Of a stretch of 64,000 nucleotides of DNA, positions 2,161-50,950 are shown piece by piece. The notes under the pieces are model-generated. The model made no database searches, was not told where the DNA came from, and worked only from the letters and a program-made list of their open reading frames with translations. A program made the position numbers and the translations under genes. Each line of letters starts with the position of its first letter. The stretch's first letter is position 1. The DNA comes from Clytia hemisphaerica (lineage: Eukaryota; Cnidaria; Hydrozoa; Leptothecata; Clytiidae), in assembly GCA_902728285.1 (NCBI GenBank), contig CACVBU010000363.1, positions 434,001 to 498,000 of the forward strand, in the 5' to 3' direction.

Positions 2161-2304
2161 CTACTTCTTATATTTGATCAGATATCGTGGATATACTTGA
2201 TCACCTTCAACGACGTACATATTAGGATTAGCAATGTTGTCCACAAGACTATCGAACAAAATGTTTCCTTGCCGCACTGGTGGACGTACATATTGGCCTT
2301 GACC
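2161..2304 (-). CDS. exon 7: C-terminus of PARP domain and stop
   Basis: 48 codons including TAG after acceptor ATGTTACAG. Encodes R-P-P, then F-D-S-L-V-D-N (the F/Y-D-S-x-V-D block), N-P-N-M1083-Y-V-V and Y-P-R-Y-L-I-K-Y. The third triad position, Glu in poly-ADP-ribosylating PARPs, aligns with Met1083, as with the hydrophobic residue in mono-ADP-ribosylating members. Confidence 0.88.
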   Translation of the reverse strand, partial: GQGQYVRPPVRQGNILFDSLVDNIANPNMYVVEGDQVYPRYLIKYKK

Positions 2305-5300
2305 CTGTAACATAATAGATTGAAAAACAATTTGGTCGTATTCTTTAATGGCAATTACAAATCGTAGATTGAAGGAGAAAGGATTTTTTCAAAAATGTTT
2401 TATATCCAGGGATATTTTAAAAGAAGCGCATTCTTGGCAAACAAATAACGGAGAGTTTAAAGTGCTACAGTATTTAAGCCTGAGTTAAGAAGAATCCTGA
2501 GAATGGGATTGAAATTTTGAATTTTCTCAATTTTTTCTTCAAATTTCACTAAAATGCCACACTATTTAGGACTAGTGTTTTATTCTTTCATGTACCATAA
2601 CAAGCGGCACATCCGATAATGTTATTGGTATTAAATTTCGCAGGCTACAAAATTTCGCGGGTACTTAATTTTGCGAAATTTCGCGAAATTTCATACTGTT
2701 TAAATTTTTCAAAAGTACAAAATCGCGAAATTAAATACACGCAAAAAAATTTCAAAATAGACCGAAAATCCGTCACTAGTTTTGTTACTATTTTTGGTAT
2801 GTTTACACCCAATACATTGTGTTTCAAGCGAAATCAGTCATATTTTTGCTTTATTCCCACTTTTTGAAAATGCCCAATTTTAGCAAATCGCAAAATTTTC
2901 GCGAAATTTTGTAACCCGTGAAATATAATACCAATAAGGTACACACTCTTACCAAAGTCGAATAGCCAATCAATACATCAGCTAAAAACATATACGATAG
3001 CCCATTTCCATCAACAGATTTGCAATATCTACTTGACATAACTGCATCTCTTGCAAAATAAACACCTTTACCATATGCGTGGGCTGTGTTCACTCGTCCA
3101 TCGAAGTTTTGAGCACAAATCGCTTCTACAATTTTATGGCTGGTTCCATGCCATATTTGTTTTTCATTGACATTCGCTTCACCGTTTGTTTTTTTCATAT
3201 TCTGCTTCTTCCTTTAAAAAGAAAAGAGAAAAAAGTTTCTTTGCCTCCTTTCTAGAAGAAATCACAGAAAATTAAGAAATCAAATCATTAAGTACTACAA
3301 AAGGTTAAATAAATATTTTAAAGCAGTTGCTTTATGAAGATCTGAGCTTTTGGGAGATTTGTTGAGAAATTTTATACGCACTTCTCTTTTTTCCTTAGAA
3401 ATCAGCTCTCAGAAATGACTCATGACTGGCCTATATTTATTTGTTTTTCCTTGACTATATCCCTTATCCTTCATTGTAAGATGTTCAAAAAGTACGTTCG
3501 TCCATAGACTAGTAAACTAGTCGTTGAAAACAGACCCATATACAAAAAATCAAGCTCCAAATAAAAAGAATCGAAGGGGTGAAGTTGCGTCTCTTTTCTG
3601 AATTTCAACGACTAGAAGCTACTTCCCTCAAAAAACGTTGTTTAATTTTACAACTTTTTTTAGGTTTTTGAGAATCCATCCAACTTTTTTGACTAAATGA
3701 TATTTCATAGTAACATTGAACATGGGAACATATAAATAAATGAGCATTTCTAAAAACGCAATAAACAGAAAGAAAAATAAATGCAATCCCGCACGAGTCA
3801 GACATACAGAAATCTGTATGTCTCTCCTTGCGATTTTAGGTGAAGAAAAAAAGGCGTTGGAAGTAGCTTCTAGTCGGTTATTTTCCTTTTCTCTCACGGG
3901 CGCTGAATATTTAATTAGTGTTTACATTATTTGATTGACAGTGTTATTATAAGTAATAACCGACTAGTTTACTAGTCTAGTTCGTCCATTTTTCACCATA
4001 TCTTGGACCCCCTCTGTCTGTCAGTATTCGAGTGTTCAAGTAACCCGCTCTAATACTTTCGTTTCTATCTTATGTTTCCCGGAAATTTCTACTTCATAAT
4101 TTTAATCTTTTCACAATGACTGAGCACTTGCAATATTTTGACTCCATACATTACTTTAGATCACGATCAGATCCAGATATGAAATAAAAAATCGTTGCTT
4201 CAACTTACAAACAATATCGTTGAAACGTTTGTACATTACAAACTTCTTGGATGGATGCAATCTTTCCATTCGCTTGTCCTCCGACTTGATTGCTATTGTA
4301 TTGTTGTCTCATAGTTTGTGTGAATTGAGCAGCAATTTCATTAAACTTCTGATCAGTCACAGGGATCAATACATAGCCGGCATCTGGAACATTATTCCAA
4401 TGTGCAGGAACCTCGAAGATGTTTGGTTGAGGTGGCTTATCCTCGCTAAAAATAAGAGAATGTATTAGTATTCCAAGTGTGAAATATCTACTATACATGA
4501 AATTGGAAATTTGCTATTTTATAGTCACTCTTTGATACAAAAAATTAATTGGCTATTCCAGAAAAAGTGTGTACCCCCTATGTTGAGGAGGTGTGACGTC
4601 CAGTGAATGAAGAAATCCAGGTTGGTCAGTAAAATCGGGTTGAAAATCCAGGGTAGTCAGTATAACGAGGTCGAAATCCAGGGTGGTTAAAAAAAAAGGG
4701 AGAAAAGAATCCAAGTCCTGAAAAATTGGAAAAAAATTCAGGGGGGTCACCTTTTTAAAAAACGACCTCCTCAACATAGGGGGTAAAAATTAGAAATTAG
4801 AAATAGAAGCTGCGTAGGAGAGCAAAGAAAAGTTGCCGAGAGGTTGCTTTCTTTCCCCGCGTGATATCGCTTCAGCCCGACCGGTGTGTCAGTCTAAACA
4901 TGGCTTAAAAAAGTCCCCGTTTCCAAAAATTATATGTTCCAATTAAATGAAATTTATAATTATCCTCAAAAACATTTCTTTCGAGCTGAAATATCATTTG
5001 ATTGTAATTTTTGATGAATGAAAATATTCCCTAAGGCTGTATATACTCCCTGGGACTGAAATTTGGTTTTCTGATTTTCAAAACCCTTAGGTGGTCTTTG
5101 GAAGTCTAAATATGGTACCCTAAAGGGCAGCACATACCCGTACCCTCCATTTGCCCAAGGGGCACTGAGTGGTGTAAAAACTTACATTGGAACTGCGCGT
5201 CTCTCAACTTTTTTCTCCTCTTCATTGTCCAAGTTCATCACGAGCATGTCTTCAAAATCCAACATATGGTCCACTCCATCTTCGGATGAGAATTCGATAT

Positions 5301-8300
5301 AATTTGGTCCACCCTCCATCTTGTACCTTTGATAATGTACATCAAGAAGTTCCGAATTTATCTAAAATATTTGAAAATAAATAATTTGAATCAAGTCCAA
5401 ATTCAACCTAACGCTTAGGGGGAATCCTTCTTATTTTCAAGTTATCTTATAAAGTTTAAAGATTAAAGATTAAATAGACGTTAAAACAACTATGTTTGAT
5501 TGCCTGGATTCCGCCATCTAATCGCTGTGTTTGTCAGATTCATCGTGTTTAAATTTGTACTGACAGCAGCATAGCAAACAGCTTTAGATGTATTTATAAC
5601 GGGAAAAGATTTGCCTTGAAAATTTTTTAGAGGATGATTGAATTGTTTCAAACGACAGCTCTTAACCCTTGAGAAAAATAGCCAACCAAAAGTCTTAACT
5701 TCAACATTAAATCATACTCACGCCATCATTTTTATCGAATTCCTGCCATACTCCACCAACTTCATACACCCATTCATATCTTTCCTTTTTTATAACTTTG
5801 AGACACGTCTTACAAAATTCGTCATCATCGACAGTTGGTTGTTTACAGTATTTGCACCTGGTAGGCTGTAAGACTGGTTGTTGTTCTTCAACTTCATCTT
5901 CAATTGCGAGATCTTCGACATCCTTAATTTAATATAAAGCATTACTTTACAGAAAAATTATGGCGTTCTAAATTCGAAAACTTCGATCAATAAATCGGCC
6001 TCAATAAAATTAACGTAAATGGCTAAAATCTAGAATCTAATATTCATTCAAGTTGGCTTCCTTGTAATCTTTAGGTTCTTTACAATCTTGAGAATCCCTA
6101 CTATGGATATTTGAGCTGTATCCTAGAGAATTGACATCCCCATTGCAATTGGTCAACGAGGTTGGGGGTGTTTAGCTACTTAAAATTTAGCTTCTTTTTA
6201 AGACATTTAGAAATCTACAAAATGAAGACTTTCAAGAGACATTACGAATCAAAATCCCCGGTCGGACCTATCTATCTCTGGTCAAGTTTAGAAAATTTAA
6301 TCCCTTTAGGGTTTCAGATACCACCGTGGCACTGAGACAGGAGAGGCATAAGCATGGTATCTACCTTTGCAATATCATCTTCTTGGTCTTCACCCTTATC
6401 ATTCTGCTCATCGTCATCTGTATCATTTTTACCGTCACCGTCACCGTCATTATCAGCATTGTCTTTGTTTCCATCTTCGTCATCTTTTACTGGTCGATTA
6501 TCCTCATTATCTGCATTTCCTTCGCCTGTTACTTTTTGGAGTAACTCCTTTTGTTTGGTGACGCACTCCTGACAAGAAATCGAGCCATCAACGATAGGGT
6601 TTTTATTGCAAATGACACATTTTGCTTGATTCGGGTTAAAGGCTAGTCTTGCATCAGCTTCTTGTTGATCCTTTTTCGATTGAGCAAAACAGCCTTCACA
6701 TAAACCGAATCCGTTTTCGGTGAAATAGACTTTAAGACATTTGGAACATTGACCTTTCGGTTCCGGATTATATCGTGGTGGCTTTTGAAACTTTTGATTC
6801 TGTTGCCTTTCTAAGAATTTTCGTTGTTCATCTTTTCGTGCGATCATTTCTTGTTGTTGCTTGTACTCGAGTTCTGGTTTGAATGGTTGTTTTTGAGGGA
6901 GAGCTTTCTGTTCTTGAGCAATGGCAAAGCCGTTGTTCGCAGCATGGTACTGGTTGTACTTGTTAGCAGCGTCATAATAATCTTCATTGCTGTTGTTATT
7001 GAAAGGAGGTTGTGGTTTATGAATGGGAAACGGCGGTTGGTATCCATTTTCCTGAAGAGGATAAGTTTGATTTTGGTGATTGAGATAGTGGTGTCCATCG
7101 TATCCAGTTTTGACAACCTGGTTAGGTTTGTATTGGTTTTGATAATTAACGTTTTGCTGACCATCAGGTGCTAGGGCAAAAGGTGCACCATATCCGGTAT
7201 GCACAGCATTTTTTGTAGGTTGATACTGATGATGGTTGTATGTTTGATTCTGGTGAAATGGGGGTCCGTGTTGTGGTGATTGTCCCAAAGCTGGTCCATT
7301 TGTTGCATGACTGTTTGGCATTTGATGTGCAGGATGATATTGCTGCCGATTATGATTGAAGAAAGGATTTTGCTGGTTGTATGCTGTGGGTGACGCTGGT
7401 GGTTGCTGGTTGTATGCTGTGGGTGATGGTGATGGTTGCTGGTTGTATGATGTGGGTGATACTGGCGGTTGCTGGTTGTATGCTGTGGGTGATGGTGGTG
7501 GTTGTTGGTTGTATGCTATGGGTGACAGTGGTGGTTCTGCATATTGGCCAGAATAGCGTTGATGTTGTACATGTTGATTTTGGTATAGGTATTGCTGTTG
7601 ATTTATAGCATTGCCTCTTTCGGTAGCCCATCTTGTAACAATTTCAAGCGTAGCTGTCATCATCTTTTGAGTATGTTCATTTGGCATTTTGAAACTCAAT
7701 TCAGCAACTGTTGTTGTTACAGATCCTTGTAAAGTGATGACATCCAAATATCTTCGAAGCATGTATAATGAATTTGCAAATTCTTGATCTCGTAAAAATC
7801 GAACAGGGATATTTGAGCCATTGGAACGTACTAAAGGTGCATGATAATTTGAATTAGGGCTGTTGTTGTTAAATGTACTGAAATTTAAATCATCATTTCT
7901 GGCGATAAGCAGGGGTGAAAAATTATCTGAATTGTAACCAATCAGGACGGGAGATCTAGCACAGTTTTCTGGTGATCGCATCAGCGGCAAATAGATTCCT
8001 TCCAAACGTATAGCATTAGCGCTCTCCTCTTGATCTCCATAACCAGCGTAAACAATGATAGGTCGCCCAATTATATTTGCCAAAATAAAGATATGTATAG
8101 CTTCAATCGAAGCGTATTTCTTTGTTCGTGGATGAGGATTTTGATCTTTAACATTGCTTAAATAGTATTCCCACGATTTATTAAACTCTTTATTGTAATC
8201 TTTTGGAGATGATCGCTGCAAAGCCATCAAACATTGTTGGTGATCATTAACCCAACGAGTATAATAATCTCCTGAAATTGTGACAAAAATAATACAAAAA

Positions 8301-9320
8301 TTTACTCCACACAAATTGATATTGCACTTTCATTAGATGGATACATTTCAACCACGTTTAAAAACTACCATACATGTTTTTTTATAAGCAAGTGTCTGCC
8401 CCTGTATCAGGCTCGCATTGTGCTTACCATTCTATTGTTCTTAAACAACAGAGCCATTGTTTAAGTACCAAAAACTGAGCCTGTGTATGTGTGAGTCTTA
8501 TAAATGTTATGCTTATAGATAAAAAACATGTATGGGCTTTTGGCTTTTTCTCACTACGTAAACTAAGGCACTTGGAATCTTCACTGACATTTAAGCTCTA
8601 AACAATAGTATTCAGAATACCACCCCATTGCTTTAGCGCTTCTATTCAAACTATTTTACTGTTGGTTTGCCCCTTTATTTAATCTGTGTCACAGGAAGAG
8701 ACAGGGGTGTATATTTGTAATTTTTCACTTTAAAAGGCAAAGTTATAGAGGACAATGAAAATAAATAGTCTGGGAGCAGAATCCAAAACAGCAATTTTGC
8801 TTACCCAGTTTTTCTAACGTTCACAATGTCCATATAACGTTAGATGAACGTTGAAACAACGTTGTGTGTCAGCTGGGTAACCTAGGAAGAATCATGACTG
8901 AAATGAAGAAGACCTGTTCGTATCTTAAGCTCACTTACCATCCCTACTTTCCATGTTCATTATTTGAAAGATTGCTTGTCTGAGAATATGTGCTTTGTCT
9001 TGCAAACCAAAAATATAAACAGATACGGAATGAATTAATGAGTTGCCATCATCTTCGACGTACACTGGCAATAGAGGTTTTACGTTTGGATTCCAATTAA
9101 TTGCAGATTTTTTCTCCATACTTCTCAGTAAAGAATAATCACTAATATATTTGATCAGATTGTTTGTAAAACCATGTGGCAACATTATGGTAGAGCTGGT
9201 GAATTTAGCGTCCATAAAATGTTGGTACCCTGATGTGGTGAATGCTCGAAATATAATTTCTTGCATATTTCTACAAGCATCTTTGTCACATTTGTCAAAT
9301 GTAGTTTTTCTATTATCCAT
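2161..9320 (-). CDS. A20-like pseudo-OTU / zinc finger / WWE / PARP fusion protein (7 exons)
   Basis: Exons in transcript order: 9320-8939, 8271-6365, 5922-5722, 5361-5186, 4445-4209, 3211-2953, 2304-2161. All six introns are GT...AG and every junction phase agrees, giving 1102 codons including TAG. Domains: OTU fold of the A20/Cezanne type (about residues 15-255), Gln/Pro/Asn-rich linker with 11-residue repeats, four-Cys zinc modules (Cys636-655, 679-697, 786-803), acidic Asp/Asn stretch, WWE (about 810-887), and PARP catalytic domain (about 895-1101). In known families, OTUs of this type cleave or bind polyubiquitin, WWE binds iso-ADP-ribose or poly-ADP-ribose, and such PARPs modify proteins with ADP-ribose. 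The OTU lacks the catalytic Cys and His, so it is more likely a ubiquitin binder than a protease. The start ATG at 9320 is preceded by in-frame TAA, so I take it as the initiator; a spliced 5' UTR exon (TTGTAG just upstream) is likely. Likely cytosolic or nuclear; no signal peptide or membrane span seen. Confidence 0.87.
2625..2934. mobile_element. MITE with TTGGTATTA TIRs and TA target site
   Basis: Left end reads TA-TTGGTATTAAATTTCGC; right end is the imperfect complement ending TAATACCAA-TA. The interior is built of TTTCGCGAAATTT-type motifs. TA flanks fit a Tc1/mariner-type MITE. Its right end is less than 20 bp from the splice donor of exon 6. Confidence 0.75.
2953..3211 (-). CDS. exon 6: PARP catalytic core with His and Tyr of the triad
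   Basis: Encodes N-E-K-Q-I-W-H989-G-T and H-A-Y-G-K-G-V-Y1019-F-A-R-D, the NAD-binding His and Tyr blocks of PARPs, then S-S-R-Y-C and M-F-L-A-D-V-L-I-G. The junctions restore L968 upstream and L-G downstream. Donor TTTG|GTAAGAG. Confidence 0.88.
3212..4208 (-). other. intron 5 with a MULE-like MITE
   Basis: GT-AG intron of 997 bp carrying the element at 3506-3979. No coding sequence is seen. Confidence 0.7.
3506..3979. mobile_element. 474-bp MITE, TIR AGACTAGTAAACTAGTCG, with 10-bp TSD
   Basis: TIRs AGACTAGTAAACTAGTCG and complement. The flanks at 3496-3505 and 3980-3989 are identical (GTTCGTCCAT), a 9-10 bp target duplication as seen with MULE-type elements. A second inverted pair lies inside (ACTAGAAGCTACTTCC at 3610-3625 and its complement near 3859-3874), so the element can fold in two nested stems. 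Non-coding. Confidence 0.82.
4209..4445 (-). CDS. exon 5: N-terminal PARP catalytic domain
   Basis: Begins with one base completing an Ile codon and ends with two bases (TT). Encodes P-A-H-W followed by F-x-x-I-A-x-Q-F-x-x-T and I-Q-E-V-C-N-V-Q-T-F-Q-R-Y, the opening helix and the I-x-x-I-x-R-V-Q-N-x-x-L-W-x-x-Y equivalent of WWE-PARP catalytic domains. Acceptor TTATTTTTAG, donor TGTTT|GTAAGT. Confidence 0.85.
4446..5185 (-). other. intron 4 with a 214-bp MITE
   Basis: GT-AG intron. It contains the MITE at 4572-4785 and otherwise unremarkable AT-rich sequence. Confidence 0.7.
4572..4785. mobile_element. MITE with 21-bp TIRs (TACCCCCTATGTTGAGGAGG...)
   Basis: A perfect inverted repeat of about 21 bp, TACCCCCTATGTTGAGGAGG at the left and its complement at the right. 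The inside holds imperfect copies of a GAAATCCAGGGTGGTCAGT-like unit. Non-autonomous, no ORF. It sits inside intron 4 of the PARP-fusion gene. Confidence 0.85.
5186..5361 (-). CDS. exon 4: C-terminal half of WWE domain
   Basis: Starts in phase 0 and ends with two bases of a codon. Ends in M-L-D-F-E-D-M-L-V-M-N-L-x8-V-E-R-R, matching the typical WWE ending (Y-x-V-D-F-x-x-M-x-Q-x-N ... x-R-R). In place of the usual Q there is V, so poly-ADP-ribose contacts may differ. Donor CCAAT|GTAAG. Confidence 0.82.
5722..5922 (-). CDS. exon 3: third zinc finger and start of WWE
   Basis: 67 codons, phase 0 at both ends. Carries an acidic lead, then Cys786-x2-Cys789-x10-Cys800-x2-Cys803, then Y-E-W-V-Y-E-V-G-G-V-W-Q-E-F, the first Trp-containing strands of a WWE domain. 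Acceptor TTAAATTAAG, donor GGC|GTGAGT. Confidence 0.82.
6365..8271 (-). CDS. exon 2: C-terminal OTU, Gln/Pro repeats, two zinc fingers, acidic stretch
   Basis: Starts with the OTU helix region (I-E-A-I-H-I-F-I-L-A-N, then G-I-Y-L-P-L, then S-P-V-L-I-G-Y). In this family the next block contains the catalytic His; here it reads S-D-N244-F-S-P-L-L, so the His is Asn. Then follow about 370 residues rich in Gln, Asn, Pro, Tyr and His, and two zinc modules: Cys636, 639, 652, 655 and Cys679, 682, 694, 697 (C-x2-C-x11/12-C-x2-C, close to the A20-type spacing). The exon ends in an Asp/Asn/Glu-rich tract and a donor AAG|GTAGAT. Length is unusual for an exon in this gene. The low-complexity half is probably disordered. 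Confidence 0.85.
7368..7535 (-). repeat. 33-bp coding tandem repeat, YNQQPPxSPTA units
   Basis: About five tandem units of 11 codons within the linker of the PARP-fusion protein, each reading Y-N-Q-Q-P-x-x-S-P-T-x. The units differ at the x positions (P, V, S, A), so the array has diverged while the frame was kept. S-P-T is a potential proline-directed phosphorylation site in each unit. Confidence 0.8.
8272..8938 (-). other. intron 1 of the PARP-fusion gene
   Basis: GT-AG intron of 667 bp. Near its 5' end (8803-8880) lies a small inverted structure with TTACCCAG on one side, CTGGGTAA on the other and repeated AACGTT motifs, possibly a short MITE remnant. Nothing coding is seen. Confidence 0.6.
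8939..9320 (-). CDS. exon 1: N-terminal half of pseudo-OTU domain
   Basis: Encodes residues 1-127 plus one base of codon 128. It contains the OTU block D91-G92-N93-S94-L-I-H followed by S-V-S-V-Y-I-F-G-L-Q-D, which lines up with the D-G-N-C-L-x-H and G-x-Q-D blocks of A20, Cezanne and TRABID. The nucleophilic Cys is Ser94 (codon TCA, two base changes from any Cys codon, so not a simple read error). Donor is G|GTAAGTGAG at 8938. Confidence 0.85.
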
Positions 9321-13067: not shown

Positions 13068-13461
13068 CTTTAGGCGTACAAACTTTCGCGAGCAGAAACT
13101 TTCGCGATTTTGGCGAATTTTGGCCTTTTTCGCGAAAGTAAATGTCTCTGAAAATTCTTAACAGGGCAATTCGCGAAAAATTCTCAAAAAAATTCGAAAT
13201 CTATAAAACCTCGAAATCGTAATAAATATCAAATGCATTTTTAAAGTCGGAGAGCAACCGTCTTTAGCGGATTTAATAATATTTTTTTATTATTTTTAAG
13301 GCAATTTTTATTTGAAAATTCTTTTTTTTATCCAACGATTCGCGAAAGTTTATGCTCGCGAAAAACATTTTTTCCTCAAATTTAAGAAAGTAAATGTCAC
13401 AAATTTTGCGATCTTTCGACCTTGCGAAAGTTTCTGCTCGCGAAATTTTGTCCGCCTAAAG
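13068..13461. mobile_element. MITE with CTTTAGGCG ends and TTTCGCGAGCAGAAAC boxes, TA target site
   Basis: Flanked by TA on both sides (13066-13067, 13462-13463). TIRs of about 35 bp begin CTTTAGGCGTACAAAC and CTTTAGGCGGACAAAA and share TTTCGCGAGCAGAAACTTTC. The TA duplication suggests Tc1/mariner-type mobilisation. Related pieces are at 14605-14730 and 59168-59453. It lies about 80 bp upstream of the methyltransferase start codon, in its presumed 5' UTR intron. Confidence 0.85.
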
Positions 13462-13510
13462 TAGATTGTCTGGCACTGTATATAAAAAGATATAAAATTC
13501 ATTCACAATT

Positions 13511-13520
13511 TATTTTCCAG
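13511..13520 (+). other. probable 3' splice site in the 5' UTR of the methyltransferase
   Basis: TATTTTCCAG followed by ATATTC, 18 bases before the ATG. Fits a spliced 5' UTR; the upstream exon is not identified. Confidence 0.5.
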
Positions 13521-13538
13521 ATATTCAAAGAGAACATC

Positions 13539-14288
13539 ATGCATTGGTTCGTCGTGGTAGTCATAATAATCGCAGTGATCTATGCACTATCCAAAATTCC
13601 ATTCATCAAAAGGCTTATCAAGTATTATCATGAGCGTTTCATTGCACAACGAGTTGCCAACTATGCTAAAAAGCATATTCATGGGATAAAGGAGATCAAT
13701 GATAAAACGTGCAAATTGTTCGAATCTATGGAAAGTGTTATTGATAAGGTTGGTGGACCCATATTGGATCTTGGTTGTGGATCTGGTGGAAATGTTTCAT
13801 ACTATCCATCGAATGCAAAGATATGGACTATAGATTTAAACACGCAATTTCACTCTTACTTGAAAGAGAGTATGAAATCTAGCAAAGCTACACTTGAGAA
13901 ACACCAAGTTGGCAATGCTGAGGAAATGCAAGAGATTTTCAAAGATAACACCTTTAGTTGTGTTGTTTGCACGAAACTTTTATGCTGTGTGGACCAAGAG
14001 AAAACTCTTCGTGAAATCATGAGAGTGTTGAAACCAGGTGGCCGATTTTATTTCTTGGAGCATATTATTGAAAAACCATGGACCTTTACGCGTTACTTTC
14101 AAATCCTATACACACCTTTATGGAAAAGGATTATTTGTGGGTGTCAGCTGCACAAAGACACTGACAGAGTGCTAAAAGATTTTGGTTTTGATAATTTTCA
14201 ATTTGAATATTGGCAACGACCTTTGCCATCTTCGTTTTTCTTTGCTCGTCGTAGTTGCATTGGTTACGGTGACAAACCGGTTATGTAG
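13539..14288 (+). CDS. METTL7/TMT1-like membrane-anchored SAM-dependent methyltransferase
   Basis: 249 residues, close to the usual METTL7A/B (TMT1) length. An N-terminal hydrophobic anchor (M-H-W-F-V-V-V-V-I-I-I-A-V, residues 1-20) is followed by a basic stretch. Then comes a class I methyltransferase fold: motif I P-I-L-D-L-G-C-G-S-G-G-N, acidic loop W-T-I-D-L-N, and E-I-M-R-V-L-K-P-G-G-R-F-Y-F-L-E-H, with a C-terminal region typical of METTL7 (H-K-D-T-D, F-E-Y-W). Family members sit on the ER or lipid droplets and methylate small thiols. The frame is open further upstream, into the MITE, but the METTL7-like anchor starts at 13539 and TATTTTCCAG at 13520 looks like a 3' splice site, so I use the ATG at 13539. 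The coding part is one exon. Confidence 0.88.
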   Translation: MHWFVVVVIIIAVIYALSKIPFIKRLIKYYHERFIAQRVANYAKKHIHGIKEINDKTCKLFESMESVIDKVGGPILDLGCGSGGNVSYYPSNAKIWTIDLNTQFHSYLKESMKSSKATLEKHQVGNAEEMQEIFKDNTFSCVVCTKLLCCVDQEKTLREIMRVLKPGGRFYFLEHIIEKPWTFTRYFQILYTPLWKRIICGCQLHKDTDRVLKDFGFDNFQFEYWQRPLPSSFFFARRSCIGYGDKPVM

Positions 14289-22749: not shown

Positions 22750-23575
22750 TGTAGAAAAATCAGTCAATTTTCATATTATATAATACAAACAAAAAATTTA
22801 TTCAGGTTATTTTCATTTTCATTAAATTTATCATATTTGTTCAATGCAGGTCATTTTGTCAATGTTTACATTTTATACTCAATGTAGGTCATTTTTGTCA
22901 ATGTTTACATTTTATACTCAATGTAGGTCATTTTGGTAATGTTTATTTTCAATGTAGGTCTGTATTTTATACATTGTTTACATTTCTACCATTTTGATGA
23001 GTCATCACTTTTTGGTGTCCAGTCCACATGAGGCTAGACTAGGGCTTGCATGCTTCTTCATGTCATTCACAATCAAGCTCACAAGGAGTAAGGAGCTCAA
23101 ATTAAAACTCTAATTTTTTCAATATGGTCAACATTCAATACTTTCAATAGTCAAGTTCAGACTTTGAAAATCAGACAAAAATTCACAATGCTTTCATGCT
23201 GGCAGGCTGGTAGGTTTTGCTTTCTTGTTCTGCCTTTTTGCTTTTTTGCCTGTCAGTTGTGGCCATTTTGTTTTCATAGCATGCTTTGGCGGCCATCTTG
23301 GATTTTCAGCATGCTTAGGTTAGGTCATCTGGACTTAGATTTTCTCAAACATTTTCAATATTTATTTTTCTAATCAATTCAATTTCAAGACTTAACTTTG
23401 TCAATCAAATTTATTTCATTTAAATCAATCAATCAAATACTTATTAGTTTATCATATTTCATTTTCAGTTTGAACATACGTCAACAACGTTACAAATACC
23501 TGTCGTCTGAATCATTGACCCCCTCAACCGCCCTTGGGTAGTCTCAGTCATCATTTCGACCCTCATATAACAACA
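22750..23575 (+). repeat. 5' LTR of BEL/Pao element 1
   Basis: Starts TGTAGAAAAATC and ends ATAACAACA. Contains three tandem copies of a TCAATGTAGGTCATTTT-type unit near 22853-22960, likely in U3. Confidence 0.9.
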
Positions 23576-23597: not shown

Positions 23598-24335
23598 ATG
23601 ACTACACGACCAAGGCGTTCAACACGTAAAGACATTCACTACTCCATGTTCAACAACACAGGACGTATTGTCGAGAAAATTGATTCATCAGTTGGAGATC
23701 ACAACCTATCTTCAAATTATCAAACCATCATGACTGATCAGAGTCCAACAAAGGAAGAGATACTTCACCATGTCAACTCCACAGCACTCATCACTGATGT
23801 ACTTACCGGATTAGAGGAACTTACCGATATCATGAATGAACACAATATCAGTACAAGCTCAGACTCTGATAACAATGAAACAATACAATCACTCAAAGAT
23901 CTTCGTCGTGACATCCGCCATCATATGAACCAACTAAAAGTCCTCAATCCAGAAGTTCATGACGTTCACTCTAAAACCTATGATTCAACCATAAAGGAAG
24001 TCGGTGAGTTCATTATTGAATGCAAAAATCACAAGACAAATCATCAGGCTCAAATGGAGAAGGCATTGGGTGATCAAACCAAGTTACAAGAAAAATCACA
24101 GCAATTTATTGTTGATGACACAAACATTCTTCTGAACAGACTTGAAGTGATTTTCAACAAAATCTTAACGGGATGTCCGACACAGAAATTCTTCATCTCA
24201 AATCACAGCTATCAGATCACGACAAATCATTACGAGTTATTTCCGAAAAATACCAAGAACTTCTCAAAACACCATCAGCCAACGTGGAATTGGAATCTCA
24301 AATATCAGAAATTGGTGAGAAGTACATTGAGTTGA
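23598..24335 (+). CDS. BEL/Pao gag, N-terminal ORF
   Basis: 245-residue ORF starting with a basic segment (T-R-P-R-R-S-T-R-K) that matches the start of element 2's gag (Q-R-P-R-R-T-C-A-K-R), then a helical, Gln/Asn/Asp-rich region. Real gag similarity probably stops near residue 190. After that the coding sense continues in the -1 frame, in the next ORF. In element 2 the equivalent region is one uninterrupted frame, so the break here is more likely a one-base indel than programmed frameshifting; I see no classic slippery heptamer. Confidence 0.75.
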   Translation: MTTRPRRSTRKDIHYSMFNNTGRIVEKIDSSVGDHNLSSNYQTIMTDQSPTKEEILHHVNSTALITDVLTGLEELTDIMNEHNISTSSDSDNNETIQSLKDLRRDIRHHMNQLKVLNPEVHDVHSKTYDSTIKEVGEFIIECKNHKTNHQAQMEKALGDQTKLQEKSQQFIVDDTNILLNRLEVIFNKILTGCPTQKFFISNHSYQITTNHYELFPKNTKNFSKHHQPTWNWNLKYQKLVRSTLS

Positions 24336-27300
24336 GCAACCTAAAAGGAACCTTTATTGATTACCTCAATGAACAGTTTACAGATCGAGAGATTGAAAAG
24401 TACAAATCTTTCAAAGAATCCAACCTCAACATCAAGATTGAAAAATTTTCAGGGTATGAATCAATAGACATTTATACGTTCAGATCAAATTTTGAGAAAG
24501 TTCATCTACGAAATACGCCAAAGAAACTCTTACCTGATTTACTTATAAACAATCATTTATCTGAACCTGCCTTATCACTTGTTAAAGGCTTAACTGACAT
24601 TGAAATTATCTGGAATCGCCTAGTTGAAGCTTATGGCAACTCCAAAATGCTTGTATCTCGTAAACTTGCTGACATAAAGAAGTTGGATCCAATCAAAACC
24701 AGACACGATCCTGCCAAAATCTTACGAACTATCACTGGACTGATCAAAGTACTGAGAGACTTAATTTCTCTTGCTGAGCAACATAAAATTGAAAATCAAC
24801 TTTACTACGGCGATTGTTTGGATCAAGTGTACCAACTCTTGGACGACACCAGATTGGACAAATGGCTAGCAACAATCTGTGAGGAAGAGATCACTGAGAA
24901 ACAAAAGTGGTCAAATCTCATCATCTTCCTGGAGAAGGACGTCAAACTTCTCCAGCAAAAGCAACTCATCAAACTCCCAACCAACAAAGACGATAAAGAT
25001 GGCAAGTCAAAATCAGGCAAATCAGGATATGGAAGTCATCATGTCCCACCAAGTCAAGACCCTGAACCAGCTTGCTACTTCTGCGACGGCAAATGTCCAT
25101 CTGAGCATATTCAAACAAGAGGACCATGGGGGAAGATGGTAACTCAATATTTTGCCTGTAAACAATTTGTCGACAATACTCCACGTGAACGACTGTCAAC
25201 TCTGAAGCGCAAAGGATTGTGCTTCCAATGTCTACTACCCGGAGCAAAATTGTCAGAAGGCAAACACAGAGATGGAAGGTGTCAATATGAATTTGTCTGC
25301 AAGCACCCAAGTCATTCATCATGGACTGTTAAGAAGCACGTATTAGTCTGTGATGATCACAAAGATACAGATGACAATCAAACTCTTCTTCAACGTTTTA
25401 AAGACAAATTCATCAATCGAAATCAACAGCTTCCAACCTTCGTCAAGGAGATCAAAGTCTCATTTCACACTGACTGTCACATCAATGCCATGCCATCTGA
25501 CAACATCCATCATTCAAGCCCTGGCATCTACCTATTACAACAAATTTTGGTCAACAATCAGAAGTTCACAGTATTCTTCGACAATGGCTGCAGTGACTTT
25601 GTCATTCGAAAATCTGCAGTCAACCGATTAGGATCATATGCTACCCAAATCTTCAGTGGAAGTGTCAACATTGGTGGTGTGGGTGGAACATCAACTCAAT
25701 CCTCACATGGCATCTATCTTGTCAACCTACCTCTGCACGATGGTGACATGATCCCGATGAGAGGTATATGCCTTGATCAGATTACGCAAACATTTCCAGT
25801 GTATCCTCTCACACCAGCAATATCAGATCTACAAAGAGCCTACTCAACAACTGGTGATGTATCAAAACTCCCATCGCTTCCACAATCCATTGGCGGAGAC
25901 GTCGACATCATGATTGGCGTCAGGTACTTGAATGTCCATCCCAAACTCATCTTCCAAATGTCAACTGGCTTATCAGTATTCGAATCTGTTTTCAATGGTC
26001 CAGACGGTAGAGGTGTACTTGGTGGTCCACATTCATCATTTGACGAGATCCACAAGAAGCATTACAACACACTCTTCAATCTGAGGTTACCAATGCTGAC
26101 CTACTTTGCATCCCTATCATTCATTGGTCACGGTAATGACAAATTCGACATCAACCCAGAAGTCCAATCACATCACATGTTCGATCTTGCAGAGAAGACA
26201 GGTAGTGAAATTCTATACCGATGCGTTAACTGTCGGAACTGCAAGGATTGCAAGAGCCACGGTGCAACCGAGAATATCAGCATCAAAGAAGAGGTGGAGC
26301 AACACCTCATTGCCAAGTCGATTCACATCAATGAAGAAACAAACATCATCACAGCAAAACTTCCATTCACTCACAACCCGGATGTAAAGCTTGCACCCAA
26401 TAAAGACAAAGCCTTGAAAGTATATCAACAACAATTACGCAAACTCAACAGGAAGGAGAACCTCAAAGACAAGGAGGATATCATCAACTCCGAAAAGAAG
26501 TTACAAAATCTCGGATTTGTCGATTATGTACGCAATTTGCCAAATGACATTCAACGTCAACTTCAGATTCAGACGAAGCATTTCATCCCATGGCGAGCGG
26601 TATGGAAGCCAGGATCAGTCAGCACCCCATGCCGAGTCGTATTTGACGCCTCATCACAGACATCAACCGGCTTCAGTTTAAACGACATCATTGCAAAGGG
26701 TCGCAACAACATGAACCTTCTCCAAGAAATCGCTATTCGCTTCTTGATCCACAGAGCTGCATTCACCACAGATGTATCCAAGATGTACAACACTGTCAAA
26801 TTGTGTGAAGAACACTGGTGTTATCAACGATACGTATGGCAAGAGGAGCTTGATCCACAAAGAATACCAGAGGAAAAGGTGATAAAGACTTTAATTTACG
26901 GTGTTCGATCCGCAGGGAATCAATCTGAATATGCCCTCCGAGAAATTGCCAGACTATCACAAGACCTGTATCCAGAGGCATCCAAGATCATTCTCAATGA
27001 TACATATGTAGATGATTGCGTCAGTGGAGAAGATTCAATCGAACTTGCACGTCAACGCTCTCAGGAGCTCGAACAAGTCGTCAACAAAGGTGGATTCAAG
27101 TTAAAAGGTATCGTCATCTCAGGAGAAGATCCACCGGAGACAATGAGTGAAGATCAACAGAGTGTAACCGTTGCAGGAATGAAGTGGTTTCCAAAGCAAG
27201 ATGTCATCTCATTGAACATTGGGGAAATGAACTTTGCTCCAAAGAGAAGAGGAAAGAAATCAGCATCATCAACCAACATCATCCCTGACAAGCTAACAAG

Positions 27301-29755
27301 ACGTCACTGCGCATCAAAAGTCGGGGAAGTTTTCGATCTTCTTGGAAGAGTTACTCCCATAACCGCACAGTTCAAGCTTGATCTTCATGACCTTGTTATC
27401 CAAAAGTTCGACTGGGACGATGTGCTTCCTGATCACCTTCGCAAACTTTGGATCAACAATTTTGAGATGATGCAAGAAATCAACCAACTTAAATATCAAA
27501 GGACAATCGTACCACCTGATGCTATCAACCTTGAAGTTGAGACCCTGGACTTTGCTGATGCAAGCCAATCCCTTGTATGTGTCGCAATTTATGCAAGATT
27601 CAAGCGTCAATCCGGAACCTACTCATCTCAACTCGTTTTGTCGCGATCACGGATTGTCCCAGAAGGAATGTCTCAACCACGCGCAGAGTTATATGCTGCC
27701 TTACTGAATTCACACACTGGCGAAGTTGTCCGAAAATCACTTGAGAATTGGCACCAATCTGCAATCAAATTTTGCGATAGCCAAATCGTTCTTCACTGGC
27801 TCAGCAATGACAAAAAGACGTTGAAACAATGGGTTCGTAGCCGAGTTATCGAAAGTTTACGTTTCACACAATCCAATCAATGGTTCTACGTTCAAAGTGA
27901 TCATATGATCGCAGATATTGGCACTAGAAGAGGACCTTCAATCCCTGATGTCGATAATGATTCTCGTTGGTTCAAAGGAGATCCTTGGATGAAACTCAAC
28001 TATTCGGAAATGCCAATCGTCAAGATTTCCGATATCAAGATGTCCAAATCTGAAGAGTCTCAAGCAGCCGTAGAAATTTATCACTCTGAGGTTCATCACT
28101 CCAAGCAGTCAAACCCAATTATAAGGATCATGGATGAAGTTAACAAACGTCTGGAATTCAGCAACTACCTGATATCACCGCTCAAGTATCAGTTTCGAAA
28201 AGTCGTGAACATCATGGCAATCATCTTCAAATATTTCAGAGCATTGAGGAAAAGAAGAAAATCACCAACCAATTCACCACTTCCTCTCAAAGCTGATTCA
28301 TCATTTGTCTTCCTAGTTGAGGAGGACATAACATCTGCAAAGAATTATTTCTTCCGAAAAGCCACCCAAGAGATCAAGAAGTTTCTACCATCAAAAGGAA
28401 TCAAGGACATCACATCAGAGCAACACGGTATCCTGAAGTACACCGGTCGGATTCTTGACACTAATGACATCACAATTGTTGGCAGATTTACCAATTCAAT
28501 GAGAGACTTATCTTCATCAACATTCCGTGTACCTGTTTTGGACAAATTCTCACCAGTAGCAGTAGCAATTGTCAACAACATCCATTGGTATCACATCACC
28601 GCAAAACACTCCGGTGTGGAAACTACTCTACGATTTGTTCATCTTCAAGCCTACATCATTGAGGGACGGTCACTTGTGAAGATGGTACGCAGATCATGTC
28701 AAAGATGTCGCTATCTGTTGAAAAGAGCCGTAGACGTTGCAATGGCACCGGTCTCCAGACACAATCTCACCATTGCCCCCGCCTTCTATTCAACTCAAGT
28801 TGATCTTTGTGGACCATTCGATTCATACTCAGCACACCACAAACGCACTACAGTCAAGATATGGCTTCTCGTTTTCTGCTGTGCCACAACTTCAACAACA
28901 AACATAAAAGTTATGGACGATTACAGCACTCAGTCGTTCATCCTTGGCTTCACAAGATTTTCATGTGAAGTAGGATATCCGAAAACCCTACTTTGCGACG
29001 CTGGCAGTCAACTCATTAGAGGCTGTCAAGACATGCGGTTCAGCTATCTCGACGTCAAACATCAACTCTTCATCAGTAATCAAGTTGATTTCGAAGTTTG
29101 TTCTGTTGGTGCTCATAACGAACACGGCAAAGTTGAACGAAAGATCCGTGAAATCAATTCATCCATCAATGTTGCACACCGACAAAAGTTATCTACACTT
29201 CAGTGGGAGACACTTGCTTCCTCTATCGCCAACAGCATCAATAATATGCCCTTAGCCATCAAGGGTACAATCGGAGATCTGGAAAACCTCGATATTCTAA
29301 CGCCAAATCGCCTCAAGCTTGGTCGAAACAATGAAAGATCACCAGTTGAACCAGTTCAGCTTGTAAGCAATCCGAGCAAGCTTGTTGATGAAAATTGTAA
29401 GATATTCAGTTCATGGTTTGAGAATTGGCTTTTGTCACACGTCCCAAAATTACTGAAACAGGAGAAATGGTTTACTACGAGTCATGAAATCAAAATTGGA
29501 GATATTGTTTTATTTTTGAAAAATGATTCGAAAATATCTTCAACGTATCAGTATGGAAAGGTTGTTAATGTTGAATTTAGTTCCGATGGTTTGGCTCGTC
29601 ATGCTAGTGTACGTTATATGAATGCTAATGAGAAAGTATTTCGTGAGACACGTCGTTCCACACGAAATTTAGTTATCATCAATCATGTCGATGAAGTTGA
29701 TTTGTTTTATGAATTGGGAAAGAACACTTTAAAGAACTTTTCAAAAATCAAATAA
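24173..29755 (+). CDS. BEL/Pao gag-pol polyprotein (protease, RT, RNase H, integrase)
   Basis: 1860-residue ORF. In order: rest of gag (DUF1759-like, F-S-G-Y-E-S ... V-E-A-Y-G); Cys/His zinc region (C-Y-F-C ... C-F-Q-C); retropepsin-like protease (DUF1758 type) with D470-N-G in place of the usual D-T/S-G; reverse transcriptase with Y-V-D-D (residues 945-948); RNase H with D-A-S and A-E-L-Y-A-A motifs; integrase with H-x3-H-C2 zinc motif, then core D, D and E residues (Q-V-D-L-C-G-P, C-D-A-G, N-E-H-G-K-V-E); and the C-terminal DUF5641-type domain ending R-S-T-R-N-L. The order integrase-after-RNase H with H-H-C-C and Y-V-D-D fits BEL/Pao. The Met at 24173 is only the first ATG in this frame; the natural product probably starts in the upstream gag ORF. 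Apart from the frame change and the D-N-G protease it looks intact. Confidence 0.93.
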   Translation: MSDTEILHLKSQLSDHDKSLRVISEKYQELLKTPSANVELESQISEIGEKYIELSNLKGTFIDYLNEQFTDREIEKYKSFKESNLNIKIEKFSGYESIDIYTFRSNFEKVHLRNTPKKLLPDLLINNHLSEPALSLVKGLTDIEIIWNRLVEAYGNSKMLVSRKLADIKKLDPIKTRHDPAKILRTITGLIKVLRDLISLAEQHKIENQLYYGDCLDQVYQLLDDTRLDKWLATICEEEITEKQKWSNLIIFLEKDVKLLQQKQLIKLPTNKDDKDGKSKSGKSGYGSHHVPPSQDPEPACYFCDGKCPSEHIQTRGPWGKMVTQYFACKQFVDNTPRERLSTLKRKGLCFQCLLPGAKLSEGKHRDGRCQYEFVCKHPSHSSWTVKKHVLVCDDHKDTDDNQTLLQRFKDKFINRNQQLPTFVKEIKVSFHTDCHINAMPSDNIHHSSPGIYLLQQILVNNQKFTVFFDNGCSDFVIRKSAVNRLGSYATQIFSGSVNIGGVGGTSTQSSHGIYLVNLPLHDGDMIPMRGICLDQITQTFPVYPLTPAISDLQRAYSTTGDVSKLPSLPQSIGGDVDIMIGVRYLNVHPKLIFQMSTGLSVFESVFNGPDGRGVLGGPHSSFDEIHKKHYNTLFNLRLPMLTYFASLSFIGHGNDKFDINPEVQSHHMFDLAEKTGSEILYRCVNCRNCKDCKSHGATENISIKEEVEQHLIAKSIHINEETNIITAKLPFTHNPDVKLAPNKDKALKVYQQQLRKLNRKENLKDKEDIINSEKKLQNLGFVDYVRNLPNDIQRQLQIQTKHFIPWRAVWKPGSVSTPCRVVFDASSQTSTGFSLNDIIAKGRNNMNLLQEIAIRFLIHRAAFTTDVSKMYNTVKLCEEHWCYQRYVWQEELDPQRIPEEKVIKTLIYGVRSAGNQSEYALREIARLSQDLYPEASKIILNDTYVDDCVSGEDSIELARQRSQELEQVVNKGGFKLKGIVISGEDPPETMSEDQQSVTVAGMKWFPKQDVISLNIGEMNFAPKRRGKKSASSTNIIPDKLTRRHCASKVGEVFDLLGRVTPITAQFKLDLHDLVIQKFDWDDVLPDHLRKLWINNFEMMQEINQLKYQRTIVPPDAINLEVETLDFADASQSLVCVAIYARFKRQSGTYSSQLVLSRSRIVPEGMSQPRAELYAALLNSHTGEVVRKSLENWHQSAIKFCDSQIVLHWLSNDKKTLKQWVRSRVIESLRFTQSNQWFYVQSDHMIADIGTRRGPSIPDVDNDSRWFKGDPWMKLNYSEMPIVKISDIKMSKSEESQAAVEIYHSEVHHSKQSNPIIRIMDEVNKRLEFSNYLISPLKYQFRKVVNIMAIIFKYFRALRKRRKSPTNSPLPLKADSSFVFLVEEDITSAKNYFFRKATQEIKKFLPSKGIKDITSEQHGILKYTGRILDTNDITIVGRFTNSMRDLSSSTFRVPVLDKFSPVAVAIVNNIHWYHITAKHSGVETTLRFVHLQAYIIEGRSLVKMVRRSCQRCRYLLKRAVDVAMAPVSRHNLTIAPAFYSTQVDLCGPFDSYSAHHKRTTVKIWLLVFCCATTSTTNIKVMDDYSTQSFILGFTRFSCEVGYPKTLLCDAGSQLIRGCQDMRFSYLDVKHQLFISNQVDFEVCSVGAHNEHGKVERKIREINSSINVAHRQKLSTLQWETLASSIANSINNMPLAIKGTIGDLENLDILTPNRLKLGRNNERSPVEPVQLVSNPSKLVDENCKIFSSWFENWLLSHVPKLLKQEKWFTTSHEIKIGDIVLFLKNDSKISSTYQYGKVVNVEFSSDGLARHASVRYMNANEKVFRETRRSTRNLVIINHVDEVDLFYELGKNTLKNFSKIK

Positions 29756-29782: not shown

Positions 29783-30606
29783 TGTAGAAAAATCAGTCAA
29801 TTTTCATATTATATAATACACACAAAAAATTTATTCAGGTTATTTTCATTTTCATTAAATTTATCATATTTGTTCAATGTAGGTCGTTTTGTCAATGTTT
29901 ACATTTTATACTCAATGTAGGTCATTTTTGTCAATGTTTACATTTTATACTCAATGTAGGTCATTTTGGTAATGTTTATTTTCAATGTAGGTCTGTATTT
30001 TATACATTGTTTACATTTCTACCATTTTGATGAGTCATCACTTTTTGGTGTCCAGTCCACATGAGGCTAGACTAGGGCTTGCATGCTTCTTCATGTCATT
30101 CACAATCAAGCTCACAAGGAGTAAGGAGCTCAAATTAAAACTCTAATTTTTTCAATATGGTCAACATTCAATACTTTCAATAGTCAAGTTCAGACTTTGA
30201 AAATCAGACAAAAATTCACAATGCTTTCATGCTGGCAGGCTGGTAGGTTTTGCTTTCTTCTTTCTGCCTTTTGCTTTTTGCCTGTCAGTTGTGGCCATTT
30301 TGTTTTCATAGCATGCTTTGGCGGCCATCTTGGATTTTCAGCATGCTTAGGTTAGGTCATCTGGACTTAGATTTTCTCAAACATTTTCAATATTTATTTT
30401 TCTAATCAATTCAATTTCAAGACTTAACTTTGTCAATCAAATTTATTTCATTTAAATCAATCAATCAAATACTTATTAGTTTATCATATTTCATTTTCAG
30501 TTTGAACATACGTCAACAACGTTACAAATACCTGTCGTCTGAATCATTGACCCCCTCAACCGCCCTTGGGTAGTCTCAGTCATCATTTCGACCCTCATAT
30601 AACAAC
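29783..30606 (+). repeat. 3' LTR of BEL/Pao element 1
   Basis: Same sequence as the 5' LTR apart from a few single-base changes and small indels in a T-rich run near 30255. Identity ends at AACAAC; the next base is G where the 5' LTR has A. Confidence 0.9.
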
Positions 30607-44535: not shown

Positions 44536-46239
44536 TTAATTATTGAAACAATCATTCAGTTCTTTGGACCAATCAATTTCCTCAATTCGATGGATAACAA
44601 CCAAGCTACGTGCTGATCGTGTTGTAATCCTTTTACAATTTTCACTTGCGTTGTGGTATCGAACTTTTACACGACGGATTTGATTATCTCGGCTACGTTC
44701 AACTTCATCAACCATGCCATATTGATAGGTATTGGATAGAATTGATTCCTGTTTTGTAAATAGGACTACATCACTAATATTAATATCAGTGTCGGAGTTG
44801 AACCATTTGGGACGCGCAACGAGGCTTGGCACATGAGTTGTAAGCCAGGCGTCAAACCATGAGTCGAAGATCTTTTGATTGTCGCGGATCAGTTTGATAT
44901 GATAATTTTCAGCGGTTAATCTCCCTGTTGGACTTCGTTCATTGTTTCTGCCCAAAAGGAGTCGGTTAGGGGTGATAAGATCAGCCATTTCAACATCTGA
45001 TTTTATGTTGTTGACTGCGATCGGCATGTTGTTGATTGAGTTGCTGATTATTGACGCCATTGTTTCCCATTGGATAATTGACAGGTGGTGGAGTTGCAAA
45101 TTTTTGTCGAGTGAATTTCGAACAGACTTGATCTTTCGCTCTACTCGCCCATGCATGTTATGCCCCCCAACAGGACATGTTTGAAATTCCAAATGTACAT
45201 CCTTGTGTAGTTGTTGCTGAATGTCAGTTATGTCGAACTTCATTGTTTGGCAACCCTTCACTAATTCACCTTCGTCAATTAGCAATTTTGATGGATAACC
45301 AAATTGACAGGAAAAGCGTGTGAATGCTTGAATGAATGATGGTGCTGCATAATCCTCCATCACTCTGATGTTGACACTTGTTGTAGTCGCACAGCAGAAC
45401 ACAAGGAGCCATACTTTAACAGTTGTTCTCTTGTGATGTTGAGAAAAGGCTTGAAAAGGTCCAGCAAGATCGGCTTGTGTGATGAAAAAGGCTGGTGCAA
45501 TGCATAAGTTGTCCATTGATAATGGACCCATTTCAATGTTGATGGATTTCTTCATTATGTAACGACAACGCTGACAGAAAGATCGCACATCCTTTACCAA
45601 TGATTTACCATCAATGATAAGTGCTTTTTGAAGAACATGTCGCCAAGTTGTTTCATTCCCAGAATGTTTGGCGGTCGGGTGATGCCAATGGACATCATTG
45701 ACAATGCTGATGGCAACCGGTGAGAACTTTTCCACAAGGGGAACACAAAATGTCGTGGACTTTAGATCTTTCATAGTTTTTGTCAAGTTGCCCAGAACAG
45801 TGATTGAATCTGTTGGCAATATACGTCCAATGTGGATAAGTATGCCATCCTTTTCCATTGATATCTTTTTGTACTTTGAACGGTCTGTGAAATGCTTGAT
45901 TTCCTTTGTTGCCTTTCGGAAGAAGTACTTTTCTGAATGACAAAGTTCATCTTCTGTTAGTGATGGACTAGGTGATTTCTGTTTGAACACATGTACATTA
46001 ATGAATCGAAGTACATATGCCATGATTCGGACAACTTTTGAAAACCGATGACTGTTGGGGTCGACCAAGTAACCAGAGAATCGATATCTGGCTTTGGTGT
46101 TATTGATAAATTTCTGATTGAGATGACAGGATGGTGTTACTTCTTGTTTGACCTTCTTTTGAACCTCCGCCAGTTGGCTGTTGGTTAATGTTATTTCCTC
46201 CATTGTCTTTGAAGGGAAGGATGTTGAGGATTGCTTCAT
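44536..46239 (-). pseudogene. element 2 integrase region
   Basis: 567-residue frame with the integrase H-H-C-C motif (H-P-T-A-K-H-S-G ... C-Q-R-C-R-Y), core D (Q-A-D-L-A-G-P), D (I-D-E-G) and E (M-H-G-R-V-E) residues, and the C-terminal DUF5641-type domain ending R-S-A-R-S-L. Separated from RNase H by a frame change near 46240. The domain itself looks complete. Confidence 0.88.
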
Positions 46240-46646
46240 TCATGGATAGCCAGTTGTCCAAACAGATGATTGGTCCACTTCTTCGTTGATGTGCATCTTC
46301 GTGTACCAATATCAGCAATCATGTCAGTTGTTTGTACGTATACCCACTGAGATGATGATGTCAGTCTTTTGATCTCGTTGACTCTATTTCGCACCCATTG
46401 TTTGAGTTGAATGGTTGGCTTGGTGATCCAATAAAGCACTATTTGAGAGTCAGTGAATTTGACTGATGTTGCGTGTTGAAATGATTTCCTGACAACTTCT
46501 CCTGCATGCGTATTGACCAATGCTGCATATAACTCAGCACGAGGCTGTGTCATTTCTTCTGGCACAAGGCGACTTCTGGCAAATACCAATTGACATGAGT
46601 AGCTTCCATTTGTCAGTTTAAATCTTGCATAAAATGAGATATCCAT
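46236..46646 (-). pseudogene. element 2 RNase H fragment
   Basis: Holds A-R-F-K-L-T-N-G-S-Y ... P-R-A-E-L-Y-A-A-L and A-D-I-G-T-R-R. Compared with element 1, about 45 residues are missing just before it, including the first catalytic Asp (D-A-S), so the RNase H cannot be functional. Confidence 0.82.
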
Positions 46647-50486: not shown

Positions 50487-50950
50487 GTGAGCGAGATGTC
50501 TGACGCTTGACAGATGAGCGAGACCTTGGACGCTTGACAGATGAGCGAGACGTCTGACACTTGACGGATGAGCGAGAAGTTGGACGCTTCACGGATGAGC
50601 GAGACGTTGGACGCTTGACGGATGAGCGAGACGTTGGACGCTTGACGGATGAGCGAGACGTTGGGCGCTTGACGGATGAGCGAGACGTTGGACGCTTGAC
50701 GGATGAGCGAGACGCCAGACGCTTGACGGATGAGCGAGACGTTGGGCGCTTGACAGATGAGCGAGACGTCAGACGCTTGACGGATGAGCGAGACGTCAGA
50801 CGCTTGACGGATGAGCGAGACGTTGGACGCTTGACGGATGAGCGAGACGTCGGACGCTTGATGGATGAGTGAGACGTCGGACACTTGACGGATGAGCAAG
50901 ACGTCGGACGCTTGACGGATGAGCGAGACGTCGGACGCTTGACCGATGAG
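50487..50950. repeat. 27-bp minisatellite, about 17 units
   Basis: Unit GACGGATGAGCGAGACGT plus TGGACGCTT, in tandem from just before the gag ATG of element 2. Because 27 is a multiple of three, both strands stay open (S-L-I-R-Q-A-S-D-V on minus, T-D-E-R-D-V-G-R-L on plus). It occupies the leader between 5' LTR and gag. Confidence 0.92.

Follow-up and report, generated by a model that had tools for sequence, protein, structure and literature searches.

Binding of polyubiquitin by OTU domains of the A20 type serves its cleavage. PARPs, for their part, have repeatedly been fused to domains of the ubiquitin system, namely UBCc, UBA, UIM, RWD, and U-box (PMC4245714; PMC2964712). Further papers report that PARP10, through UIMs that recognize K63 chains, restrains NEMO ubiquitylation and NF-kB (PMC9149570), that WWE domains bind ADP-ribose units (PMC10450202), that mono-ADP-ribose marks made by PARP7 gather with ubiquitin and p62 in proteotoxic stress (PMC12488922), and that TRABID C443S, a Cys-to-Ser form of an A20-group OTU, traps ubiquitylated proteins via its NZF fingers (PMC7948964). 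OTU domains go unmentioned in the excerpted portions of four PARP texts (PMC4245714; PMC2964712; PMC10450202; PMC12687431), and no description of a chain uniting an OTU with PARP and WWE domains was found in the open-licence literature. Here we describe such a chain, encoded in a 64,000-nucleotide window (C257:434001-498000, plus strand) of the 417-Mb assembly of the hydrozoan cnidarian Clytia hemisphaerica; contig labels such as C820 and C351 refer to the same assembly. What appears to be new is the OTU–PARP chain, PARPs with other ubiquitin-related domains being already known.

The gene consists of seven exons on the minus strand (Table 1). GT/AG borders are present at 6/6 junctions, and the spliced open reading frame of 3306 nt encodes 1101 residues, with its sole stop at the end; the seven-exon model proposed in the initial annotation was thereby reproduced. 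A start of exon 6 at 3251 was discarded, as it breaks the frame, while 3211 restores both the frame and the 1101-residue length. Exon 2 alone holds 635 open codons, against a longest frame of 186 among 500 mononucleotide shuffles. Pfam recovers an OTU at residues 91-242 (2.3e-9) and a PARP at residues 936-1100 (2.5e-20), both past their cut-offs. P0001, an NCBI entry titled 'uncharacterized protein [Clytia hemisphaerica]', shows 99% identity across its 1101 residues and is likewise modeled as one chain.

A second gene, on C820, carries the same design. It has six exons and 1408 residues in the order OTU, zinc fingers, WWE, and PARP, with all three named domains over the Pfam cut-off (37.8, 43.0, and 82.1 bits, respectively), and it has diverged from the window protein to 46% identity over 344 residues of the OTU, 38% over 77 of the WWE, and 54% over 161 of the PARP. 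Its five junction phases (1, 0, 2, 2, 0) are the same as in the window gene, where exons 2 and 3 have a single 3032-base exon as their C820 counterpart; that exon lies inside a 1055-codon open frame and extends from mid-OTU across the zinc modules and into the WWE. Because this second, diverged gene shares the design, the conclusion does not depend on a single gene model: on the evidence of gene structure and paralogy, the OTU–PARP fusion is real. The initial annotation had proposed one gene and one chain, ordered OTU, four-Cys modules, WWE, PARP, and both claims held, the former through P0001 and the C820 paralogue, the latter through Pfam and the same paralogue. It had also considered a break at 6365-5922, with OTU and WWE-PARP encoded by separate genes; this was checked without transcripts, and the uninterrupted C820 frame crosses the corresponding place. 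Its statement that no family combines both domains stands in part, as P0001 (this gene) is the only carrier of both among 15 proteins returned from the database, but C820 is a second such gene. The C820 protein was not returned either, so the absence of other OTU–PARP proteins from that set proves little.

By its closest solved relatives, the OTU is of the A20 type: residues 1-258 match A20 best among 13 structures (2vfj, 1.2e-26), followed by OTUD7B (1.4e-18) and ZRANB1 (2.2e-16). In the A20 alignment, however, DGNC becomes DGNS in the window protein, and the His preceding a conserved Phe becomes Asn; these are the columns of the A20 catalytic residues, which we take to be numbered C103 and H256. 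A motif scan found both catalytic motifs in 12 of the 15 database proteins, eight with Cys/His and four without: P0001 (Ser/Asn), P0002 and P0006 (both Ser/Ile), and P0011 from Callorhinchus milii (Ser/Arg). The motif patterns used did not match P0015, and an OTU is absent from P0004 and P0005. Of 36 columns invariant among the eight Cys/His proteins, the window protein and P0002 each keep 30, P0006 keeps 29, and P0011 keeps 28. Besides the Cys and the His, the window protein has lost four of these residues: Thr88 is replaced by Val, two Leu by Ile, and a third Leu by Met, with the Thr-to-Val change common to all four proteins that lack Cys/His. Judging by these residues, the OTU is catalytically dead, its Cys and His lost and its core kept; for that reason, a predicted role in reading ubiquitin is favored over one in cutting it. 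A 13-row OTU tree places the dead cnidarian-side OTUs in one clade (support 100/99). The shark A20-like protein P0011 branches apart from them, apparently an independent loss.

Likeness to A20 extends beyond the OTU, as the window protein also places four-Cys modules after this domain, the first of them A20-like, and groups with A20-finger proteins; it differs in lacking the catalytic Cys and His and the C-terminal series of A20 fingers, in place of which it carries WWE and PARP. The modules were cut out and their A20-finger scores compared with those of 1000 shuffles of their non-Cys letters, and module 1 was matched or beaten by 5/1000, thus scoring as A20-like. Against the whole protein, an A20-finger profile gave no row for the window protein, and Pfam zf-A20 gave no match at E up to 1. 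The WWE reaches 18.9 bits, below the cut-off of 21.1 that its C820 counterpart passes, and the isolated WWE matched no PDB sequence at E up to 1.

Among solved structures, the C-terminal 317 residues are closest to PARP12 (2pqf, 3e-32), then to PARP13 and PARP15, and the key residues His989, Tyr1019, Ser1027, and Tyr1030 are present. As in the PARP12 group (PARP7/11/12/13, clade 3), the WWE directly precedes the PARP. Unlike that group, the window protein bears an OTU at its N-terminus and has Met rather than Ile as third triad residue, a column assigned from the PARP12 alignment. No CCCH fingers, a feature of PARP7/12/13 and not of PARP11, were found in it by Pfam at E up to 1. H-Y-I is listed as a triad of mono-transferases in a table of PMC9149570; the C820 paralogue shows this triad, and a fish PARP14-like protein (P0004) also has Met in the third column. 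Because PARP12 is the closest solved structure and the third triad residue is not Glu, we infer that the domain is a mono-ADP-ribosyltransferase.

The 3' end of the gene is duplicated. P0001 equals the window protein for 991 residues, after which 14 of the 110 C-terminal residues differ, and the differing letters are found downstream on C257, in a copy of exon 6, which has a GT donor and ends at 429937, and a copy of exon 7 from 429540. Together with a copy of exon 5 that lacks its first residues, these form a tandem duplicate of exons 5-7 at C257:429398-431364 (minus strand), just downstream of the gene and outside the window, with segments at 83-95% DNA identity. In the NCBI model, exon 5 of the window is evidently followed by the exon 6 and 7 copies, since P0001 has the Arg935 of window exon 5, where the copy has Gly. 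An allelic source for the 14 differences was rejected, the matching exons sitting downstream on the same contig. His, Tyr, and Met are kept in both exon versions; the window version agrees with PARP12 at HGTS, YGKG, and ARDA, where the downstream copy reads HGTR, IGKG, and ARNA. Purifying selection on the duplicated exons 6-7 is not demonstrated, given nonsynonymous (dN) and synonymous (dS) divergences of 0.059 and 0.130 (Fisher p 0.056). The initial annotation had picked up neither this duplication, nor the C820 gene, nor the loss of the OTU catalytic Cys and His.

A genome search that used P0001 as query returned 43 matches (67 candidates, 42 scored) and revealed dead-OTU loci on C257 (the window), C820, C351, and C470, with three tandem copies on C193. 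The catalytic columns could be read in six of these seven copies: the Cys column holds Ser in 6/6, and the His column holds Asn in one and Arg in five, including C820. The C351 gene is unfused, with a dead OTU followed by fingers to the protein end (A20-type C-terminal fingers, read by eye); within 160051-169500, it showed no WWE-PARP match save a weak one (E 0.015) that by position lies in a zinc module. Frames are broken in the C470 copy and in C193 copies 1 and 3, and C193 copy 2 is listed with a 525-codon open frame. C662 holds PARP-like exons together with CCCH- and WWE-like exons (the latter two by eye), and no OTU was matched across the 10.8 kb that were read. With the live A20-like protein P0008 as query, 16 matches were obtained; 14 fell on the dead loci and two on C540, which reads DGNC and SHF. 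As its nearest relatives are P0015 and the OTUD7B-like P0013, C540 is more Cezanne-like than A20. No live A20-type gene was found in Clytia by this six-frame search of one assembly, which cannot exclude one.

The OTU and PARP trees group the fused genes differently. The 14-row OTU tree unites its seven dead cnidarian-side rows in one clade (100/100), within which the fused C257 and C820 genes group together (93/93, not starred), in 94% of bootstrap trees as against the unfused dead OTUs. In the PARP tree, C820 instead joins the unfused C662 genes (90/92, not starred), the fused genes are united in only 2% of bootstrap trees and need two changes, and the starred branches permit a single origin; with 13 rows, ~130 residues, long branches, and 2/10 inner branches starred, this tree resolves little. 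The fusion may therefore reflect one event with later exchange or loss, or two events. On C470 (86501-99700) and C193 (1197200-1220480), dead-OTU genes lie ~8-10 kb upstream of separate PARP genes on the same strand, and these PARP genes show CCCH and WWE-like stretches (by eye). Tandem dead-OTU and PARP genes of this kind are a plausible route to the fusion.

The reading that we prefer is of one protein in which the dead OTU and zinc modules would bring a mono-ADP-ribosyltransferase to ubiquitylated targets, and we assign it a probability of about 0.42. The dead OTU and zinc modules would hold on to ubiquitin chains but leave them uncut, the WWE would sense ADP-ribose, and the PARP domain would put single ADP-ribose units on the ubiquitylated target, on ubiquitin, or on itself; the effect would be akin to that of PARP10, damping NF-kB signaling, and the duplicated 3' exons would permit an alternative catalytic core. 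This proposal draws on the precedents of TRABID trapping, PARP10, WWE, and PARP7. PARP10 is alike in design, combining a ubiquitin-binding part—predicted for the window protein—with a mono-ADP-ribosyltransferase in one chain. It differs in using UIM helices and an RRM where the window protein has a dead OTU and zinc modules, and the two are homologous only in the PARP domain; neither UIM nor RRM was matched by Pfam in the window protein at E up to 1, though short UIMs may escape Pfam. By analogy with A20 and PARP10/12 only, a role in innate immunity may also be inferred.

Several observations weigh against this proposal. Modules 2 and 3 are not recognizable as A20 fingers (505/1000 and 123/1000 shuffles score as well), the third triad residue, Met1083, is not the Ile listed for PARP12, and the dead OTU alone may bind little, because the trapping by TRABID needed NZF fingers (PMC7948964). 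In another reading, which we consider quite possible, the dead OTU has lost its contact with ubiquitin and has become a scaffold or partner-binding domain, the PARP half being an ordinary WWE-PARP. The Drosophila OTUD4-family pseudo-enzymes CG3251 and Otu also have Ser for the catalytic Cys, and such Ser-containing homologues appear to lose more than the Cys and to act without deubiquitinase activity (PMC4654579), which speaks for a scaffold and likewise tells against ubiquitin reading; they belong to another OTU subfamily, however, and the window protein additionally loses the His and carries a PARP. The window OTU is also fast-evolving, with a branch of 0.79 versus 0.25 for C820 in the 14-row tree. 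Yet 30 of the 36 invariant columns are kept, and the losses besides Cys and His are mild, which fits a scaffold without ubiquitin contact less well. That the Ser might itself serve as nucleophile, the OTU still cutting ubiquitin, is very improbable even though it sits exactly in the nucleophile position: the catalytic His is lost too, replaced by Asn, and the Ser-containing OTUD4 homologues are inactive (PMC4654579).

Doubts about the other half of the protein take two forms. The PARP domain could be inactive, or a mere reader of ADP-ribose in the manner of PARP13, as the methionine in the triad and the alterations near the NAD+ site in the downstream exon copy might suggest. We regard this as rather unlikely, given that His989, Tyr1019, Ser1027, and Tyr1030 are all in place, whereas PARP13, which is non-catalytic, lacks the triad His; moreover, P0004 shares the Met, and C820 retains the H-Y-I triad. 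Alternatively, annotation could have misjoined an adjacent OTU gene and WWE-PARP gene. Clytia does have unfused OTU and separate PARP genes in tandem on one strand, at C470 and C193, and intron 2 contains two ATTAAA hexamers (6301 and 5933). But intron 2 has no AATAAA, the first in-frame Met from exon 3 on is residue 845, within the WWE, NCBI's independent model is one chain, and the single C820 exon spans from mid-OTU to WWE. On the C820 evidence the two-gene reading was rejected, and we give it next to no credence.

Table 1. Features of the OTU–PARP gene, in window coordinates.
Feature	Position	Strand	Remarks
Exon 1	8939..9320	-	Start codon and N-terminal OTU half, including Val88 and Ser94; 48% identity to C820 exon 1
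Exon 2	6365..8271	-	Remaining OTU, Gln/Pro-rich linker, four-Cys modules 1-2, acidic stretch
Exon 3	5722..5922	-	Four-Cys module 3 (residues 786-804, 5800-5856) and first WWE half
Exon 4	5186..5361	-	Second WWE half
Exon 5	4209..4445	-	Start of PARP region; has a downstream duplicate
Exon 6	2953..3211	-	PARP core: His989 (3148-3150), Tyr1019 (3058-3060)
Exon 7	2161..2304	-	PARP C-terminus, Met1083 (2218-2220) in third triad column, stop codon
A20-homologous OTU, residues 40-305	7739..9203	-	Encloses intron 8272-8938; A20 2vfj E 1.2e-26; Pfam OTU 2.3e-9
Ser94, column of A20 catalytic Cys	9039..9041	-	From alignment
Asn244, column of A20 catalytic His	7922..7924	-	From alignment
Pro/Tyr/Asn/Gln repeats	7364..7516	-	Part of 33-bp tandem array 7370-7536, 5.1 copies
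Four-Cys module 1, residues 636-657	6683..6748	-	A20-finger-like by score
Four-Cys module 2, residues 679-698	6560..6619	-	Not separable from shuffles as A20 finger
WWE, residues 813-884	5200..5775	-	Spans exons 3 and 4; below Pfam cut-off in window protein

Further features were noted elsewhere in the window. A Helitron-like element at 52205-59124 (plus strand) includes a USP-type ubiquitin hydrolase frame (PF00443, 2.9e-24) that directly precedes a DUF6570/Helitron_like_N/PIF1 helicase frame; the USP domain is a second deubiquitinase-like module of the window, next to transposon genes. BEL/Pao-type retroelement frames lie at 24146-29755 (plus) and 44536-50588 (minus), the first with a Pao peptidase match (8.6e-29) and flanked by identical arrays of 39-bp period at 22841-22945 and 29874-29978. 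A reverse-transcriptase-like frame (78-1148, minus; domain by eye) lies ~1 kb beyond the stop codon of the OTU–PARP gene, and an intronless methyltransferase-like frame (PF08241, 7.9e-18) occupies 13386-14288 (plus). An Rfam scan of the window gave 0 matches.

A broader and more doubtful scenario would have Clytia giving up A20-type deubiquitination, turning the dead OTU into a ubiquitin receptor for an ADP-ribosyltransferase, so that a reader-writer class of protein would convert ubiquitin chains into mono-ADP-ribose marks, with a duplicated 3' exon cassette supplying interchangeable catalytic cores. If its A20-type genes are dead, the question arises by what means Clytia restrains NF-kB-type signaling. 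And if the dead OTU does bind ubiquitin, the protein would be a natural substrate-trap deubiquitinase joined to a transferase, and would offer a direct route to probe ubiquitin–ADP-ribose crosstalk in an animal kept in culture.

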